Source: Spirosoma fluviale
GTDB lineage: Bacteria; Bacteroidota; Bacteroidia; Cytophagales; Spirosomataceae
NCBI GenBank assembly: GCA_945885545.1
Contig: CAMCYZ010000008.1
Location: forward strand, 1 to 40,113
Reading direction: 5' to 3'
Length of the DNA: 40,113 nucleotides
Position 1 is the stretch's first letter; each line of letters opens with the position of its first letter. The position numbers and the translations under genes were made by a program. Below are positions 9,740 through 25,550 of the stretch, in pieces. The notes below the pieces were generated by a model, which had not been told where the DNA came from, ran no database searches, and worked only from the letters and a program-made list of their open reading frames with translations.

Positions 9740-10103
9740 CACACACATATTAATTTGGTGGTTATCATAACCAGCTAAACTAAAAAAAGACCATTATGAT
9801 TTGATAATAGATTCGGAAAATACAATTTTCGTTAGCGTTGCCAGCTTCTTTGAAATTGGCATTAAAGAAAAAATAGGCAAACTCGAATTTAATGGTAACT
9901 TTGAAACCATTTTGAAATCAAACGGCTTTGAGAGTTTACCAATTACTTTAAAGCATTTAGAAACACTGAGAAAAACAGAATTCACTCATAAAGACCCATT
10001 TGACATGGTTTTGATTGCCCAGGCTATTTCTGAAAATATAGAATTGATTTCTTATAATGGTAAATTTTTAAATGTAGAAGGATTAAAGATAATTTTATGT
10101 TAA
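9720..10103 (+). pseudogene. VapC PIN-domain toxin with in-frame stop
   Basis: From the ATG at 9720 the frame reads MRKILIDTHILIWWLS, then TAA at 9768-9770, then continues without any further stop as PAKLKKDHYDLIIDSE...IFVSVASFFEIGIKEK...THKDPFDMVLIAQA to 10103. This is a VapC-type ribonuclease gene of about 127 codons disrupted by a single nonsense codon at position 17. The stop follows the first active-site aspartate (D7). A restart at TTG 9801 would give a product without D7 that should be inactive. The place of the last acidic residue also reads ISYNG, where the family usually has a D. Read-through is possible but unsupported. Confidence 0.85.
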
Positions 10104-13033: not shown

Positions 13034-13272
13034 TTAAGAAAGTAATTTCTGTGTTTTTGAATGCTAGAATTAAATTTATCAATAAAAGTAATCTAGATAT
13101 GTGTTTAAATCAGGAATCAACAAAATCACATAAAATGGATACCAATAGCATTCCCAGAATTGTGATCTATATAATCAGGAAAGTATATGAAAGGAGTTTA
13201 GAGGGTTTAGGTTTTAGGAATTTTAAAAAAAAGACATCTTACCGAATATACCCCAAGACCATGATTTTCCAT

Positions 13273-13479
13273 TTACACAAACCCTCTAATACTCAAAGTA
13301 CCATTCTCCCTTTGAAAAATAGGCATCAAAGTTTGATTACCTTGTTTGACCGTTCCGAAATAAAAATGACTGTAAGATTTGATTTTCATGGGCATCAAAT
13401 CAGGAAACTGAGCCTTCAGTAGAGCTGGTATCTCTCCATTTGATTTCACGACGTGCTTTGGTACAATTATTCTGGCCAT
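13273..13479 (-). CDS. Small protein of unknown family, copy A
   Basis: A 68-residue protein beginning MARIIVPKHVVKSNGEIPAL and ending GTLSIRGFV. I recognise no known family. It is clearly paralogous to the next gene upstream: I count about 40 identical residues of 68, including MARIIVPKH, VKSN, FPDL, QTL-P-F and GTLSI-GF. Conservation through the whole length, including both ends, argues for selection on protein. There is no signal peptide, membrane segment or cysteine motif; it is probably cytoplasmic and basic. It follows copy B by 71 bases on the same strand and may be co-transcribed with it. Confidence 0.65.
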   Translation of the reverse strand: MARIIVPKHVVKSNGEIPALLKAQFPDLMPMKIKSYSHFYFGTVKQGNQTLMPIFQRENGTLSIRGFV

Positions 13480-13550
13480 GGCTTTACTATTTTAGACGAT
13501 GATGGTTTGATTACAGTTTTATTCTCTAATTAGCACTGAACTAGTTGGGC

Positions 13551-13763
13551 TCAATAACAAGCAAATCCCTTGATACTTAATGTGCCACCTACTCTTCTAA
13601 AAACTGGCGTTAAGGTTTGACTATCATCATTGTGAGTACCACAAAAATTATGACTAAACGAACAAGATTTTTCATAGGATAAATCTGGAAAATGAGTTCT
13701 CAAAAGAGAGATAATCTCAAGATTTGACTTCACTAAATGCTTCGGAACGATAATTCTGGCCAT
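13551..13763 (-). CDS. Small protein of unknown family, copy B
   Basis: A 70-residue paralogue of copy A, starting MARIIVPKHLVKSNLEIISL and ending GTLSIKGFACY. The middle part (residues ~32-50) has diverged most and contains two cysteines absent from copy A (CSFSH, FCGT). The conserved blocks are the N-terminal MARIIVPKH, the helix-like segment up to FPDL, and the C-terminal QTLTPVF-R-GGTLSIKGF. No function can be given. A TAnnTTTG box about 66 bases upstream may serve as promoter for both copies. Confidence 0.65.
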   Translation of the reverse strand: MARIIVPKHLVKSNLEIISLLRTHFPDLSYEKSCSFSHNFCGTHNDDSQTLTPVFRRVGGTLSIKGFACY

Positions 13764-13828
13764 GGTATTTGATATTTATAATGTTTGAAAAGCTTGAATT
13801 AGAATAGCTTACGCCTTCTATTATGAAC

Positions 13829-13836
13829 CAAATGTA
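13829..13836 (-). promoter_or_regulatory. Candidate -7 box for the small-protein pair
   Basis: TACATTTG on the minus strand matches TAnnTTTG, about 66 bases upstream of copy B. No good -33 TTG is visible at the usual spacing. Confidence 0.35.
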
Positions 13837-14013
13837 TACGGAATTTTTTATGCTAAAAAATTTTGCCACATTTTGCTAATATTTTGAGCAATCGAATTTT
13901 AACGTATGGGCAGTATCGAAGGTGAGACCCCTATTGTTTAATAAATGAACTTCGTTTTCCTGCATGCCTTATCCGATTAAAGCTGCGGTACTGAACTAAC
14001 CTCTAGCTCAAAT

Positions 14014-16344: not shown

Positions 16345-16620
16345 TTGATTAAAGTTTTTATACCTGAAATTAGTAGATTTTTGGGAATCATAATTAGAAT
16401 GTTCTACAACGAACATAATCCTCCCCATTTTCATGCAATTTACAATGAATTCGAAGTGGAAATTGATATCAGGACAATGGAAATATTAAAAGGTCAGCTT
16501 CCGAAAAAGGTTTATAATCTAGTTATTGAATGGGCTATTGAACATAGAGCAGAGCTTATGATAGATTGGGAATTAATGAGAAATGAGAGCCAACCAAATC
16601 CAATTAAACCCTTAGTATAA
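16345..16620 (+). CDS. DUF4160 domain protein
   Basis: A 91-residue protein of the DUF4160 family, recognised from ISRFLGIIIRMFYNEHNPPHFHA, split here as ISRFLGIIIRMFYNEHN (9-25) and PPHFHA (26-31). The segment IDIRTMEILKGQLPKK and the ending helix VIEWAIEHRAELMIDW also fit. The start is TTG at 16345; a usual member would begin with MPEISRF, and here that position reads ATA-CCT-GAA, so the normal ATG may have been lost or the TTG used. DUF4160 genes are very often followed by DUF2442 genes, as here with a 1-nt overlap. The pair is suspected to be a toxin-antitoxin-like or regulatory module, but this is unproven. Confidence 0.85.
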   Translation: MIKVFIPEISRFLGIIIRMFYNEHNPPHFHAIYNEFEVEIDIRTMEILKGQLPKKVYNLVIEWAIEHRAELMIDWELMRNESQPNPIKPLV

Positions 16621-16853
16621 TGCACAATCAAATACCGAAAATAATTAGTGCATTCCCAAAAGAAAATTTTCAACTGGGAATTGTATTTAATGATGGAAAA
16701 AGCAAAACTGTTGATATTAATCCCTTTATTAAAAATGGAGTTTCTGCTGCTTTAAGAGACCCTCAATATTTTAAAAAAGTAATTGTCGAGAATGGATATA
16801 TTACTTGGGAGAATGGTTTTGATTTTTGTCCTGAGTTTTTATACAATTTGTGA
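16620..16853 (+). CDS. DUF2442 domain protein
   Basis: A 77-residue protein with the DUF2442 fold pattern: a short strand (FQLGIVFNDGKSKTVDINPF), then the helical LRDPQYFKKVIVENGYITWENG and FDFCPEFLY. That final block (G-x-I-x-W-x-N-G-x-D-x-x-P-x-x-L) is diagnostic of the family. It overlaps the DUF4160 stop codon by one base, so translation is coupled. DUF2442 proteins are thought to be small cytoplasmic DNA- or protein-binding partners. The next open frame begins immediately after, but it belongs to a decayed gene. Confidence 0.85.
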   Translation: MHNQIPKIISAFPKENFQLGIVFNDGKSKTVDINPFIKNGVSAALRDPQYFKKVIVENGYITWENGFDFCPEFLYNL

Positions 16854-21138: not shown

Positions 21139-21363
21139 ATCAAATACCTTCTTAATTTGTTTTTCGATGAGTTGATTTTGTAATTTTTGTTTTGATTGCC
21201 CTCGTGTGTATCCTCACAGACGAGACGTATGCATAACTTATACGGTTGATGTTTTTGAGGGAAAAACATAAGTGTAATGATGTTTTTGAGAACGCAAACA
21301 TGGAAAAATGATAAAAAAATTAGCAATGTCGGATTTGAAAGTGGTGGCACTTGCTTTTTACTT

Positions 21364-21394
21364 AAAATATTACCAATTTTATGGTAAAATATTT
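21364..21394. promoter_or_regulatory. Palindromic operator-like site upstream of the LexA-like gene
   Basis: AAAATATTACCA (21364-21375) and TGGTAAAATATTT (21382-21394) form an imperfect inverted repeat, differing by a TT insertion, just before the ATG at 21399. It is a likely autoregulatory site for the repressor encoded downstream and overlaps an earlier in-frame ATG (21381). Confidence 0.4.
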
Positions 21395-21398
21395 AGCA

Positions 21399-22166
21399 AT
21401 GAAAAAAATAAGTAAAAATATAGCTCATTTACGCCATTTGAGAGGCATTTCGCAAGAATCATTAGCTGGTGATTTGAACATCACACGGTCGAGACTGAGC
21501 TCATGGGAGGAACACAGAGCAGAACCGCCGATTGATCTTATTATACAATTGGCTGACTATTTTACTGTTTCAATTGACTCACTTCTGAAAATTGATTTGA
21601 CAAAAGTAAACGACCTGAGAGATTTACTCAAGATTGGTGGTAACCGTATATTGTTTCCTGTAATGGTAGACAGCGATGGCAAAGATTTGGTAGAGCTAGT
21701 GCCTATCAGAGCATCTGCGGGCTACCTTCAGGGTTTTAGTGATGAAAACTACATAGAGAGCTTACCTCGAATCTCCTTGCCTTTTACCGACGTTGGCAAG
21801 TTTCGTGGTTTCCCAATTCAGGGCGACTCTATGCCACCGCTGGAGTCTGGTGCTTATGTGATAGGTAAATATGTAGAAGATGTAGCTGATATAAAAGATG
21901 GAAAAACATACGTGGTTTTGACCCAAAACGATGGCTTGGTTTATAAGCGATTATACAATAAAATCGAGAAAGACGGCACCATTCATTTACATTCTGACAA
22001 CAAAGCCTATTATCCTTACCAAATAAAACCCGAGGAGGTATTCGAGCTGTGGAGTTTTGTTTGTAGTCTCAATCCTACCGATAGCCCTATTTCTGATTTA
22101 GTTTATAATGCCATTCAGAATATTCAAGCAGATGTAGTAGAATTAAGGCAGAATAGATTGGGTTAA
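21399..22166 (+). CDS. LexA-like XRE repressor with S24 peptidase domain
   Basis: The start at 21399 (MKKISKNIAHLRHLRGISQE) is preferred over the ATG 18 bases upstream, which lies in a palindrome and adds unusual residues. Residues ~5-62 form an HTH_3 domain (ISQESLAGDLNITRSRLSSW). The C-terminal half is an S24/LexA-type domain, with a putative self-cleavage Ala-Gly in RASAGYLQGF, nucleophile serine in QGDSMPP and general-base lysine in DGLVYKRLY. The architecture is that of phage CI and SOS-type repressors, yet no prophage genes surround it; such lone regulators are common in Bacteroidota. Whether it self-cleaves and what it controls is unknown. Its stop overlaps the stop of the convergent glycosyltransferase by 4 bases. 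Confidence 0.88.
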   Translation: MKKISKNIAHLRHLRGISQESLAGDLNITRSRLSSWEEHRAEPPIDLIIQLADYFTVSIDSLLKIDLTKVNDLRDLLKIGGNRILFPVMVDSDGKDLVELVPIRASAGYLQGFSDENYIESLPRISLPFTDVGKFRGFPIQGDSMPPLESGAYVIGKYVEDVADIKDGKTYVVLTQNDGLVYKRLYNKIEKDGTIHLHSDNKAYYPYQIKPEEVFELWSFVCSLNPTDSPISDLVYNAIQNIQADVVELRQNRLG

Positions 22167-23404
22167 ACCTTGGGGGGTATACTGTTTTTTATCAAAATTA
22201 TATAATCGTAGAAATAAAGAATTGTTACAGTTAAGAAAATTAGCGACACAAACCAAGGCTGAAACCAGAAGGTCTCAAATTGAGCGATATTACCTTTAAG
22301 GATTTTAGATTCCCCTTCCATATTGAGGAAAATTGCCAAACTCACCAAAAAAAACCTCACAATATCTTTGCGTAGCATGGCCAAAGCTCCAGCAAACAGC
22401 ACAAGAGGATGTGAGTAACGTGAGTGCATTTGGGTATTGAAGTAAAAGAAGAAAAGAATAATCAGCACAATGGTCAACAAAACGTTTTCGAAATTAAATT
22501 CAACATCAATATGTTTTCTGAAAATATTGAGACATTTTAGCCCAAAAGGCAACAAAACAAATCCCGAGAGGCCAAAGAACACCATGAGACCATAGGAATT
22601 ATAGCTAAGATTAAATATGCCAAATCCGTCATGGAGCAACTGCGGATTTTTAAATATCAACCACCATACGTTGTAAGCACCCATGCTAACATAAGGATAT
22701 CTACCCACGCTATCAGTAAACGAATTGATGGCTAATTTAAGGTCGCCCGACAAAATAAAGGGAAGAAAAATAAGCATCTGTAGAAATACAGCGGGTAATA
22801 AAGTAGCCAGTATCATCGAAAAAGAATACTTCTTGAGTTCATCAAACAAAATCAGGCAAATAACCGGCAAAAATATAATACCTTGAAACTTGAAATTGAT
22901 ACACAATACCAAAAACAATAAACTCACTATTGGTTTCCTAAGCAATGCATAAGTGATGGAAATAAATGCAAATCCAGTGTGTACGCCATCCATCTGACCG
23001 AATAGAAAGTTGTTATACCAAAATGCGATATTCCCTAAAACCAGAAGCGGAAGCCACATTGAATGTTTCAAATCCCTTAAATCCAATATCTTATAAACAA
23101 AAAATACGCTGACTATCTCAACAAAAAGTACCAAATATTTCAAGTGAAAAACTTTCAGATAAATACTTTCAGGTGATGCATTTATTTTGCTAAAAAACCA
23201 AAGAAAGTAGTGCCACAATGGAGGATAATCTACCTCTAACTTATAAATATTTTGAATACCAAAATGGTTGATATAATTACTCCATGTAATCCAACAATTC
23301 CTATCATTGTTGCCCCAGACATAGCTATTCGGAACGAAATAACATCCTATAACAAAAATTATTGCGTATATTACAATTGTTCTATAATCCTTCGAAATTT
23401 GCAT
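22163..23404 (-). CDS. GT-C type membrane glycosyltransferase (Gpi18/DUF2029-like)
   Basis: A 413-residue protein with about ten membrane segments. The pattern resembles GT-C mannosyltransferases that use polyprenyl-phosphate sugars: an early acidic loop (NNDRNCWITWSNYI), EVDYPPLWHYFLWF with the D-Y-P-P motif, FLFGQMDGVHTGFAF with G-Q-x-D-G, and LCINFKFQGIIFLP, where a K-x-Q-G follows. The D-Y-P-P, G-Q-x-D and K-x-Q order is shared with Gpi18-like and DUF2029 proteins. It would transfer a sugar on the periplasmic side. The lipoprotein gene upstream ends two bases before, so the two form an operon; a decayed copy of the pair lies beyond. Confidence 0.75.
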   Translation of the reverse strand: MQISKDYRTIVIYAIIFVIGCYFVPNSYVWGNNDRNCWITWSNYINHFGIQNIYKLEVDYPPLWHYFLWFFSKINASPESIYLKVFHLKYLVLFVEIVSVFFVYKILDLRDLKHSMWLPLLVLGNIAFWYNNFLFGQMDGVHTGFAFISITYALLRKPIVSLLFLVLCINFKFQGIIFLPVICLILFDELKKYSFSMILATLLPAVFLQMLIFLPFILSGDLKLAINSFTDSVGRYPYVSMGAYNVWWLIFKNPQLLHDGFGIFNLSYNSYGLMVFFGLSGFVLLPFGLKCLNIFRKHIDVEFNFENVLLTIVLIILFFFYFNTQMHSRYSHPLVLFAGALAMLRKDIVRFFLVSLAIFLNMEGESKILKGNIAQFETFWFQPWFVSLIFLTVTILYFYDYIILIKNSIPPKV

Positions 23405-23406
23405 TT

Positions 23407-23766
23407 TTATCTGTTAAGCGTTTTTTGATAATAAACAAATTCCTTATTTACACCATCATAATATTGCAAAGTATTTGTTTTATAGTTTGGGAAAAGTAAT
23501 GATTCGTAATCATTCTCTAATTTAAGCGAATACGACTGCCATTTGTTGTTAGTCCATATACTCTTCCAATTTCCCGATTGATCCAAAACGATAAGAGAAT
23601 CCGTCATTTCGAAATCAATAACAATCTCAGGATATCGACTTTTACAGTTTTTTGCGGCATCCATACAAGCCATATCTACCCATTTACCTTCTAATTGAAA
23701 GGTATTTTGGTGTGATTGACAATTCGTTAATAACAATGCCAAAAAGGCAATAATTTTCGTGTGCAT
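23407..23766 (-). CDS. Small lipoprotein of unknown function
   Basis: A 119-residue protein with a lipoprotein signal (MHTKIIAFLALLLTNCQS; lipidated C16). The mature part resembles a small beta-rich lipocalin-like domain (LEGKWVDMACMD..., SLIVLDQSGNWKSIW, SLKLENDYESLLFPNYK, LQYYDGVNKEFVYYQK). Two cysteines (MACMDAAKNCKSRYP) might form a disulfide. I know no named family for it. It precedes the GT-C gene by two bases and the same partnership appears in the decayed second copy, which suggests a linked function. Confidence 0.75.
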   Translation of the reverse strand: MHTKIIAFLALLLTNCQSHQNTFQLEGKWVDMACMDAAKNCKSRYPEIVIDFEMTDSLIVLDQSGNWKSIWTNNKWQSYSLKLENDYESLLFPNYKTNTLQYYDGVNKEFVYYQKTLNR

Positions 23767-23801
23767 AAAACAAGTTGGGCTATTTGAAGATTTTTTAAAT
23801 T

Positions 23802-23809
23802 CAAATTTA
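23802..23809 (-). promoter_or_regulatory. Candidate -7 box for the lipoprotein-glycosyltransferase operon
   Basis: TAAATTTG on the minus strand is a perfect TAnnTTTG match 35 bases upstream of the lipoprotein ATG. No clear -33 TTG. Confidence 0.45.
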
Positions 23810-24045
23810 AATACAAAATAGCTAGTCTATCTTAGAATAAGATTAGAATTGTATTATAATCAGAAGTTTTTTATGCAACGGTAAATCTGTAGTCAACAAT
23901 TTTTCACGGCAAAAAAAGCACCATATCTATAAAAAATAAAGTAAATGAAAAAACTTTCAGTACTTTTTGTGACAATCACTACGAAGTCGTATAAGTATAA
24001 TACAGTAACCAATAAGAATAGCAACGAAACAAACCGCGGCTGAAA

Positions 24046-25186
24046 CTAGACTGTTTCAAACTCAATTATGTCTCCTTTGAGAATTTTAGAAGCTCCTTCC
24101 ATGTTTAGAAATACTGCCATACTTACCAATAAAAACCTTAGATAGTCTTTCCTCAGAATTGCCAAAGTTCCAGCAAAAAGGACTACGGAGTGAGAATACC
24201 TTGCATGCATCTGTGCATTGAAATAGAAAAATGTCAAAAAAATCAGAATAGTAGCGAGTAAGACATTTTCAAAACTGAACTCGAGTTGGTTTTTTTTATT
24301 GAAAATACCAAAACTCTTTAGCCCAAGTGGCAGAAGAATTAAACCAGATAAACCGAAGAATGTCAATAAGCCTATCGCATTGAAGCTGAAATTGAAAACA
24401 CCAATATTGTCGTTCATGATTTCGGGAAGGGTAAATACCAACGACCAAATGTTGTAAGCCCCCATGCTCACAAAAGGATACCTGCCCATACTTTCTGAGA
24501 AGGAATTGAAAGCGAGTTTTATATCGCCCGTAAGTATTAAAGGTAAGAAAATTATTACCTGTAGAAACAGAACAGGCAGCACTAAGAACACTAATTATTT
24601 AAAACCGTAATGCCTTAATTGATCGAACAAAGTCAAAAATATAATCGGTAAAGATATAATGCCCTGAAACTTCAAATTCACATACAAAATGAAGAAAAGC
24701 AAACTTAAGGTAGGCTTTTTAAAAACTGCAAAAGATAAAGAGATAAAACCCAAGGCGGCAGAAACTCCGTCAACCTGCCCAAAAAATACATTATTGTACC
24801 AAAAAGCTATGTTAAAAAGAATGACCAAGGGTAAAATATAAGACAATGGGTACTTCCTAGATTCTAATATCTTATAAATCAGATATATACTTAGCATTTT
24901 TACAAGTAAGACCAGGTATTTGAACTTGTTGATATTCAGGCAAATCATATCAGAACTGCCCAGTACTTTAGCAATCAACCACAAGAAATAGTGCAACAGT
25001 AGCGGATAATCTACTTGAAGTTTATAAATATTTTGGACCCCGTAATGGAGAATGTAATTACATCATGAAAACCAACAGTTTCGATCATTTTTCCCCCAAA
25101 ACGTACATATCGGAAAGAGGTAAGCACCCAATAATGAATATTATGTTGTATACAGATAATGCCTTTTGGTTTTTAGAGAATTTCAT
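24046..25186 (-). pseudogene. Decayed paralogue of the GT-C glycosyltransferase
   Basis: It begins at ATG 25184-25186 (MKFSKNQKALSVYNIIFIIG) and hits a stop after VLGEK. The equivalents of NDRNCW, NIYKL and VDYP continue in shifted frames with further stops. An open piece follows at 24595-24996 (MHYFLWLIAKVLGSSDMICL..., FFGQVDGVSAALGF, YVNLKFQGIISLP) ending at a TAA, and another at 24046-24591 (LVLPVLFLQVIIFLPLILTG..., SMGRYPFVSMGAYNIW). Together these align from end to end with the intact gene at 22163-23404, ending ILKGDIIEFETV, and it lacks the last ~35 codons. At least three disabling changes are visible. It is not functional. Confidence 0.85.
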
Positions 25187-25550
25187 TTTTTTGATGAATT
25201 TAGTTTTTTACAATAGATGATTTTTTTGTTAACACCATCGGAGTATGCCATCATATTTTTATCATAGATTGGATATAACAATGTTTCGTAGTTATTTTCT
25301 AAAGTTAGCGTAGTGGCACTGTATTTATCACTTGAACAAACGGTCATACTTTTGCCATTGTTATACTGCACCTCTACAGAATCTCCAAGATTACTATCCA
25401 TTTTTATAATGGGAAATCTGCTAGTACAATTCTCTGTAATGCCCTTGCAAGCAACATCAATTCAAATGCCATCACTTGTAAATTAACTATTTCGGTTTTG
25501 GCAGGACGTGAGATACAATAAAGCGGCTATTAGTAAGTGGGGCTTTCTGC
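25183..25550 (-). pseudogene. Decayed paralogue of the small lipoprotein
   Basis: The minus-strand frame from about 25548 reads LLIAALLYLTSCQNRNS, stop, FTSDGI, stop, IDVACKGITENCTSRFPIIK, and then stays open (MDSNLGDSVEVQYNNGKSMT..., LENNYETLLYPIYDKN, YSDGVNKKIIYCKK) to a TGA at 25183-25185. This follows the intact lipoprotein at 23407-23766 block by block, including the SCQ lipobox, the V-D-M/V-AC...NC-SR-P segment and DGVNK. Two stop codons and loss of the initial ATG inactivate it. Its stop overlaps the ATG of the decayed glycosyltransferase, as ATGA. Confidence 0.8.

Follow-up and report, generated by a model that had tools for sequence, protein, structure and literature searches.

Tandem small proteins confined to the genus Lacihabitans are preceded by predicted SOS-type operators

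The DNA analyzed here (the window, 40,113 nucleotides) is contig C8 of a 3.9 Mb assembly that is 92.9% complete. Two short genes, A and B, lie side by side in it, with B read first and then A, and predicted promoter elements precede B (Table 1). A reading made from the sequence alone had described ORFs of 68 and 70 codons in a common orientation that share about 40 residues. Both ORFs are present as described, on the minus strand, and the estimate of shared residues is right, with A and B aligning at 60% identity across 67 residues (E 2.9e-19). Since both genes recur next to each other, in B-A order, in 7 of the 10 Lacihabitans genomes, the pair is not a product of chance. An antisense ORF that overlaps A (13051-13422, plus strand) was rejected because the substitution pattern favors the minus strand.

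Table 1. Positions of the gene pair, its predicted promoter elements and the presumed regulator gene in the window
Feature	Position	Strand	Remarks
Gene A	13273..13479	minus	68 aa; second gene, paralogue of B; pI 10.2
B-A gap	13480..13550	minus	71 nt; no high-scoring box
Gene B	13551..13763	minus	70 aa; first gene of presumed operon
Small predicted hairpin in 5′ leader, GGCGTAAGC	13800..13820	minus	-3.8 to -7.3 kcal/mol in 6 genomes
Predicted -7 element, TATACATTTG (TAnnTTTG)	13829..13838	minus	9/10 columns invariant (6 genomes)
SOS-type operator box 2, TGGCAAAATTTTTTAGCAT	13850..13868	minus	predicted, weaker; score 12.6; 17/19 columns invariant (6 genomes)
SOS-type operator box 1, TTGCTCAAAATATTAGCAA	13873..13891	minus	predicted; top motif score of the window; 16/19 columns invariant (6 genomes)
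Three operator boxes upstream of repressor gene	21308-21326, 21358-21376, 21381-21399	plus	predicted; last two 23 bp apart
HTH-S24 repressor gene, presumed SOS regulator (non-canonical LexA type)	21399..22166	plus	HTH_3 E 2.5e-9; Peptidase_S24 E 7.6e-9

We call the genus Lacihabitans because the pair is present in records of four Lacihabitans strains, among them Lacihabitans soyangensis KCTC 23259 (L049), and of three metagenome bins, of which one bears the label Leadbetterella. Among 59 genomes from the genus, family and order, seven carry the pair, and all seven fall within the genus, where G005, G008 and G009 lack it. A scan of contigs identified seven pair loci, one of which (L051) lies outside these seven genomes. 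A profile search of 222 family genomes revealed no full-length relative in the 215 others. Using profile A1, 26 of the 222 had matches at E values up to 0.1, seven of them the genus copies; the remaining 19 were rejected as homologues because they covered at most 50 of 70 positions and had in-frame stops in nine cases. The match in G196 contains three TGA codons in its 50 positions, and its opposite strand resembles part of a longer protein; a scan of G124 for four short peptides gave no match. When 390 genomes of the order were searched, matches occurred in nine, four of them the genus copies, with no further full-length member. Viral contigs yielded no match, and phages (searched with B) and plasmids (searched with A) yielded matches only at E 3 or worse. 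Within the genomes and databases searched, the pair is restricted to one genus.

Within that genus, both genes are conserved. Ortholog dN/dS values (Nei-Gojobori; 20 of 21 pairs with computable dS for each gene) are 0.014-0.082 for A and 0.036-0.189 for B, ratios that are rough because many ortholog dS values exceed 1; dS between A and B is saturated. Strong purifying selection among orthologs (dN/dS 0.014-0.19) bears out the proposal that these are real, selected small proteins. A copies are 78-97% identical among themselves and B copies 71-96%, while identity of A to B is 54-65%, and an unrooted tree separates all A from all B sequences with support of 100/100. We read this split, together with purifying selection, as one duplication that preceded the species split and after which both copies were kept. 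Both genes are present in all seven genomes with either, apart from an extra truncated copy in G004, and a family of many tandem copies, which the sequence-only reading had named as possible support, was not found: there are only two copies, plus the truncated third. That third copy, of A (L021 8350-8568), has only residues 18-68, behind an unrelated N terminus, and looks like a relic.

The surroundings of the pair are less constant. A metG-like gene adjoins B in the window and at four of seven loci (L047, L049, L051 and L052); at L048, only short antisense ORFs are listed there, and L050 and L053 have other neighbors. Directly downstream of A at L050 (8184-9020, G001) are what we take to be a PIN-domain-like fragment and an antitoxin-like ORF. 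Elsewhere in the window, positions 9801-10103 hold a presumably PIN-like ORF, and two adjacent small ORFs at 16345-16853, which we take to resemble DUF4160 and DUF2442 proteins, form a possible toxin-antitoxin-like pair. By eye, 22163-25401 appears to be a tandem duplication of a gene for a 413-aa membrane-protein-like product and a small lipoprotein-like gene, in which the second large copy is split into ORFs at 24046-24591 and 24595-24996.

Alignment of 14 family members showed that both ends of the proteins are as nearly invariant as had been claimed. M1-H9 is identical in all 14 sequences, and at the C terminus G60, L62-S63-I64 and G66-F67 are invariant, T61 is nearly so and residue 65 is variable. 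N14, E16, L20-L21, F25-P26, L28, S37-H38, T43, Q49-T50-L51 and P53 are also invariant. Both proteins are basic (pI 10.2 for A and 9.0 for B), and from their GRAVY values near zero (-0.03 and -0.06, respectively), they look soluble. The description of an undescribed family holds up, in that the 14 members had no significant match in Pfam (best E 0.021), NCBIfam (best E 0.054) or PHROGs (best E 0.025), PDB sequences gave a best E of 0.39, and in PADLOC neither A nor B of the window matched anything at E up to 0.01. Neither a dN/dS near 1 nor a match to a known domain emerged, and the original observation is sound and the reading correct as far as it went. AlphaFold2 returned one good model of A (pLDDT 83.8; a strand, a helix and three strands), with the other four at 53-59, and the best model of B reached 56.6. 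Since one of five A models is good and all B models are poor, the fold is not settled. Against PDB structures, the A model matched nothing at E up to 0.001 (best 0.34), and the highest Z in a second structure comparison was 3.3, with none at 5 or above, a weak result that does not show that the fold is new.

The best clue to the function of the pair is its promoter. Upstream of B are two 19-bp palindromes, exactly 23 bp apart in 8/8 copies and located at -128 and -105 relative to B in seven of these and at -141 and -118 in the eighth. When the 450 bases upstream of B were aligned for the eight copies, the stretch from -135 to B was closely alike, whereas past about -135 the whole set could not be aligned, though metG-bearing genomes share the start of metG. 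By gap-free count in six genomes (leaving out G001, in which the boxes are shifted by 13 nt, and L051, which is close to G006), 5 of 116 columns are invariant between -250 and -135, and 39 of 65 are invariant in the leader. The putative -7 element TATACATTTG fits TAnnTTTG in 8/8 copies, which is the Bacteroidetes -7 promoter consensus in the part of PMC6847099 covered here. Box 2 would fall roughly where a -33 element should be, the right place for a repressor to act. The loop of the leader hairpin, which lies near the predicted mRNA start, is GTAA in five of six genomes and ATAA in G002; the hairpin is not kept in G001. A sigma-70 scan detected no promoter excess, and the single Rfam match, in the metG region, fell below the gathering score.

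The two boxes differ in quality. The dyad of box 1 is CTnA-N5-TTAG in 8/8 copies (CTCA or CTTA), which retains seven of the eight dyad letters of CTAA-N5-TTAG, while box 2 has CAAA or CAAT as its left half-dyad and is a weaker match; strict CTAA occurs in neither. Between B and A, the gap contains none of the 15 best window positions for the operator motif (scores down to 8.1). In the seven other copies this gap measures 34-74 nt, and the top box score there is 11.0 (G004). A gap that lacks a high-scoring box is consistent with predicted co-transcription of B and A.

Similar sites occur at other genes of the genus. The motif was first noticed at the pair. We scored 34 promoters with a version trained on other genomes' S24, polymerase IV and recQ sites, with no pair sites and none from this genome, a leave-out test that is not fully independent because the polymerase IV training sites had been located via an earlier motif that included pair sites. 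Box 1 of the pair ranked first of 40,095 window positions (score 22.1), followed at ranks 2-4 by the repressor-gene boxes, which are orthologous to training sites, and by box 2 in fifth place. In 40 simulated sequences, maximum scores averaged 13.5, and the largest was 19.1. Box 2 scores range from 8.6 to 12.6 across copies, and the 12.6 found in the window is also reached by chance; its pattern alone is unselective, giving 10 matches in this genome against 7 for the control at up to three mismatches.

The 23-bp spacing was not part of motif training. Tandem boxes at this distance precede the pair in 8/8 cases, the S24 gene in 6/9, the polymerase IV gene in 5/8 and the DnaE-type gene of G005 in 1/1. 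Polymerase IV here is the second dinB as assigned by NCBIfam, in a count that leaves out G000 and G003, where the extra matches are partial or of other types. The first dinB (dinB1) lacks a box in all eight genomes examined, where the first motif scored no higher than 6.0. At recQ, a second box is found in 0/8, and a single box scoring at least 13.5 is found in 6/8, the other two being G007, where the site is weak, and G005, which has none; these single-site scores, like those at the S24 and polymerase IV genes, carry some circularity, since the motif was trained on orthologous sites. Eight of the 10 genomes have two recQ genes, and the 711-aa one, with a box in 6/8, is absent from G008 and G009. 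The operator type of the pair is thus also present at core SOS genes of the genus, namely the S24, polymerase IV and recQ genes and the DnaE-type gene of G005.

A scan for double boxes in all fetched DNA (899,208 positions, with overlapping loci multiply counted and loci chosen for such genes or sites) found 28 distinct cases, of which 21 have the boxes 23 bp apart, five 50 bp apart and one each 22 and 26 bp apart. Twenty of the 21 are the scored promoters. The other precedes a restriction gene in G004: at L080 7273-7314 (G004:C54), a tandem operator with 23-bp spacing is flanked by the gene for a 1244-aa type IIG restriction-methylation enzyme and by an 89-aa ORF in divergent orientation. Judging by the operator, a restriction system may be under SOS control in this one genome.

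Are these palindromes the sites of another regulator, so that the pair is unrelated to DNA damage? We consider this quite unlikely. In its favor, the strict published dyad is in neither box, and the motif in relaxed form is widespread, with 42 matches in this genome at two mismatches against 28 for the control, which made it too loose to list a regulon. A second relaxed pattern found 12 places in the 10 genomes, six of them at pair, S24, recQ or DnaE-type genes and six elsewhere. Pattern sites at other genes include L104, L105, L124 and L126-L130, six of which count against the selectivity of the motif. Strict forms, however, are rare. With up to two mismatches, TTGCTNAAAATATTAGCAA occurs at three places in this genome, which are the pair, C236 before recQ and the position just before the 21399-22166 (S24) gene, against one for its reversed control, and a strict pattern with up to one mismatch occurs at nine places in the 10 genus genomes (six pair, two recQ and one restriction gene), against three for its reversed control. 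The 23-bp spacing common to the pair, polymerase and repressor genes and the boxless state of the other dinB gene also argue against an unrelated regulator. What lies in the DNA, then, is a pair of genes under selection and boxes at a fixed spacing, with similar boxes at repressor, polymerase and recQ genes.

The candidate regulator is the HTH-S24 protein encoded in the window 7.6 kb from the pair. Its sequence contains Ala-Gly, GDSM and the VYK lysine. Searching the 10 genus genomes with PF00717 identified an HTH-S24 protein of this size in nine; the assembly without one, G002, is 77% complete. The seven HTH-S24 proteins of the types in G000-G007 retain Ala-Gly, while the proteins of G008 and G009 have diverged further and read Met-Gly at the presumed cleavage site. 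Three further PF00717 matches are of other kinds, two being frames of 743-744 aa and one short and UmuD-like. The S24 gene of G005 is flanked by the DnaE-type and polymerase IV genes, an arrangement that looks like a mutagenesis gene cluster.

HTH-S24 repressors are described as non-canonical LexA proteins of Bacteroidetes (PMC8565304), and the protein described here resembles them in its HTH_3 and S24 domains and in its Ala-Gly and Ser-Lys signature. In the parts of PMC8565304 covered here, CTAA-N5-TTAG is one of two operators and is bound specifically in gel shifts, dyad substitutions abolished binding by the Pontibacter-type regulator of P. actiniarum, and mitomycin C induces regulon genes. 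The boxes of Lacihabitans have the same spacer and nearly the same dyad, with the layout TTG-CTnA-N5-TTAG-CAA when flanks are included, but box 1 has CTnA instead of CTAA. Since the repressor-gene boxes also deviate from the CTAA dyad, this genus may rely on a shifted motif. For other regulators, palindromes are described that share the layout but have diverged, one of which was shown to be bound, and Cytophagaceae regulators could be assigned to neither motif group (PMC8565304). Predicted targets in that work include dinB, imuA-imuB-dnaE2, recQ and the repressor gene; dinB, a dnaE-type polymerase gene, recQ and the repressor gene are shared with the set found here, as is the occurrence of more than one box at several promoters. 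The regulon known from the same source consists of repair, polymerase, topoisomerase and regulator genes, and in those parts of it, neither a fixed 23-bp tandem spacing nor a small-protein target was found. Searches for literature on Lacihabitans (by title) and on such proteins, within limited coverage, found none on the pair.

Because the promoter has paired sites like those of DNA-damage genes, the pair is probably switched on by DNA damage, and we regard SOS control as highly likely. According to this model, B and A would form a two-gene operon, repressed by the HTH-S24 protein binding both palindromes; upon DNA damage, RecA filaments would trigger self-cleavage of the repressor and derepress the operon, such that B and A, as small soluble basic proteins, would be made along with the polymerase in the SOS response. 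From the sequence, we infer repressor binding, repression, induction by damage and co-transcription. The fixed 23-bp tandem spacing suggests that the repressor may bind cooperatively, as does lambda CI. Against SOS control, G005 has the repressor, polymerase and recQ genes yet lacks the pair.

How would the proteins act? This is the least certain part of the explanation. Probably together, A and B might bind and restrain a cellular target, such as the divisome, the replisome or the RecA/repressor machinery, while repair is under way. We tentatively prefer such a checkpoint or regulatory role, since SOS proteins that are small and lineage-specific have such functions in other bacteria, an argument by analogy and not by membership. 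SulA, SidA and YneA are small lineage-specific SOS division inhibitors (PMC9578287, parts covered here), and A and B resemble them in being SOS-controlled (by prediction) and in differing between lineages. However, SidA and YneA are membrane proteins, whereas A and B look soluble from their GRAVY values.

Another possibility, which we find rather doubtful, is that A and B, made in the SOS response, serve as co-regulators that modify how the S24 repressor binds DNA. The precedent is DdrR, a small Acinetobacter-specific co-repressor that works with the S24-family protein UmuDAb and enhances its DNA binding (PMC11332147, PMC10808703, parts covered here). Like DdrR, A and B are small proteins of a single genus, basic, and predicted to be controlled by an S24-family damage repressor in a lineage that presumably lacks canonical LexA. 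However, A and B are two tandem paralogues, the pair does not adjoin the repressor gene, which is 7.6 kb away in the window and on separate contigs in G001, G006 and G007, and in G005 a comparable repressor and boxes are present while the pair is absent.

It is also conceivable, if rather unlikely, that A and B assist in repair as small basic proteins, binding to DNA, RecA or a translesion polymerase in a role like that of DinI. E. coli DinI is a small SOS protein that begins with a strand and then a helix, as does the A model, and both the basic charge of A and B and their predicted co-regulation with polymerase IV, recQ and (in G005 only) the DnaE-type polymerase would suit such a role. However, the relation to DinI, which had been suggested by topology, was rejected when hhalign of 13 sequences against E. 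coli DinI gave a probability of 1.2% and an E of 0.044, and the DinI model is absent from Pfam matches of the 14 members at E up to 1. The likeness is thus without detectable homology, and the lack of an informative fold match for A also weighs against this role.

Two small basic proteins encoded in tandem behind a predicted damage-responsive promoter could instead be a toxin and a neutralizing paralogue released under SOS control, and A evolves more slowly than B. Nonetheless, we view this as very unlikely, as A and B share one sequence pattern, which is unusual for toxin-antitoxin pairs, neither has a PADLOC match, and no genome has one gene without the other, save for the truncated copy in G004.

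Taken as a whole, the explanation that the pair is an SOS-regulated operon encoding a soluble DNA-damage effector specific to the genus seems likely to us. In its most specific form, which we offer as a speculative possibility, A and B would be a heteromeric damage checkpoint or repressor co-factor that was born within the genus and wired into a phage-like LexA network via 23-bp tandem operators, making them SOS proteins new to Bacteroidetes. Small orphan proteins commonly stay "hypothetical"; in this case the promoter points to a condition that can be tested, DNA damage, and to a candidate regulator. If the explanation is true, the SOS regulon of Bacteroidetes would extend to a genus-specific effector, and the findings suggest that repressors of this phage-derived type may use tandem sites at fixed spacing.
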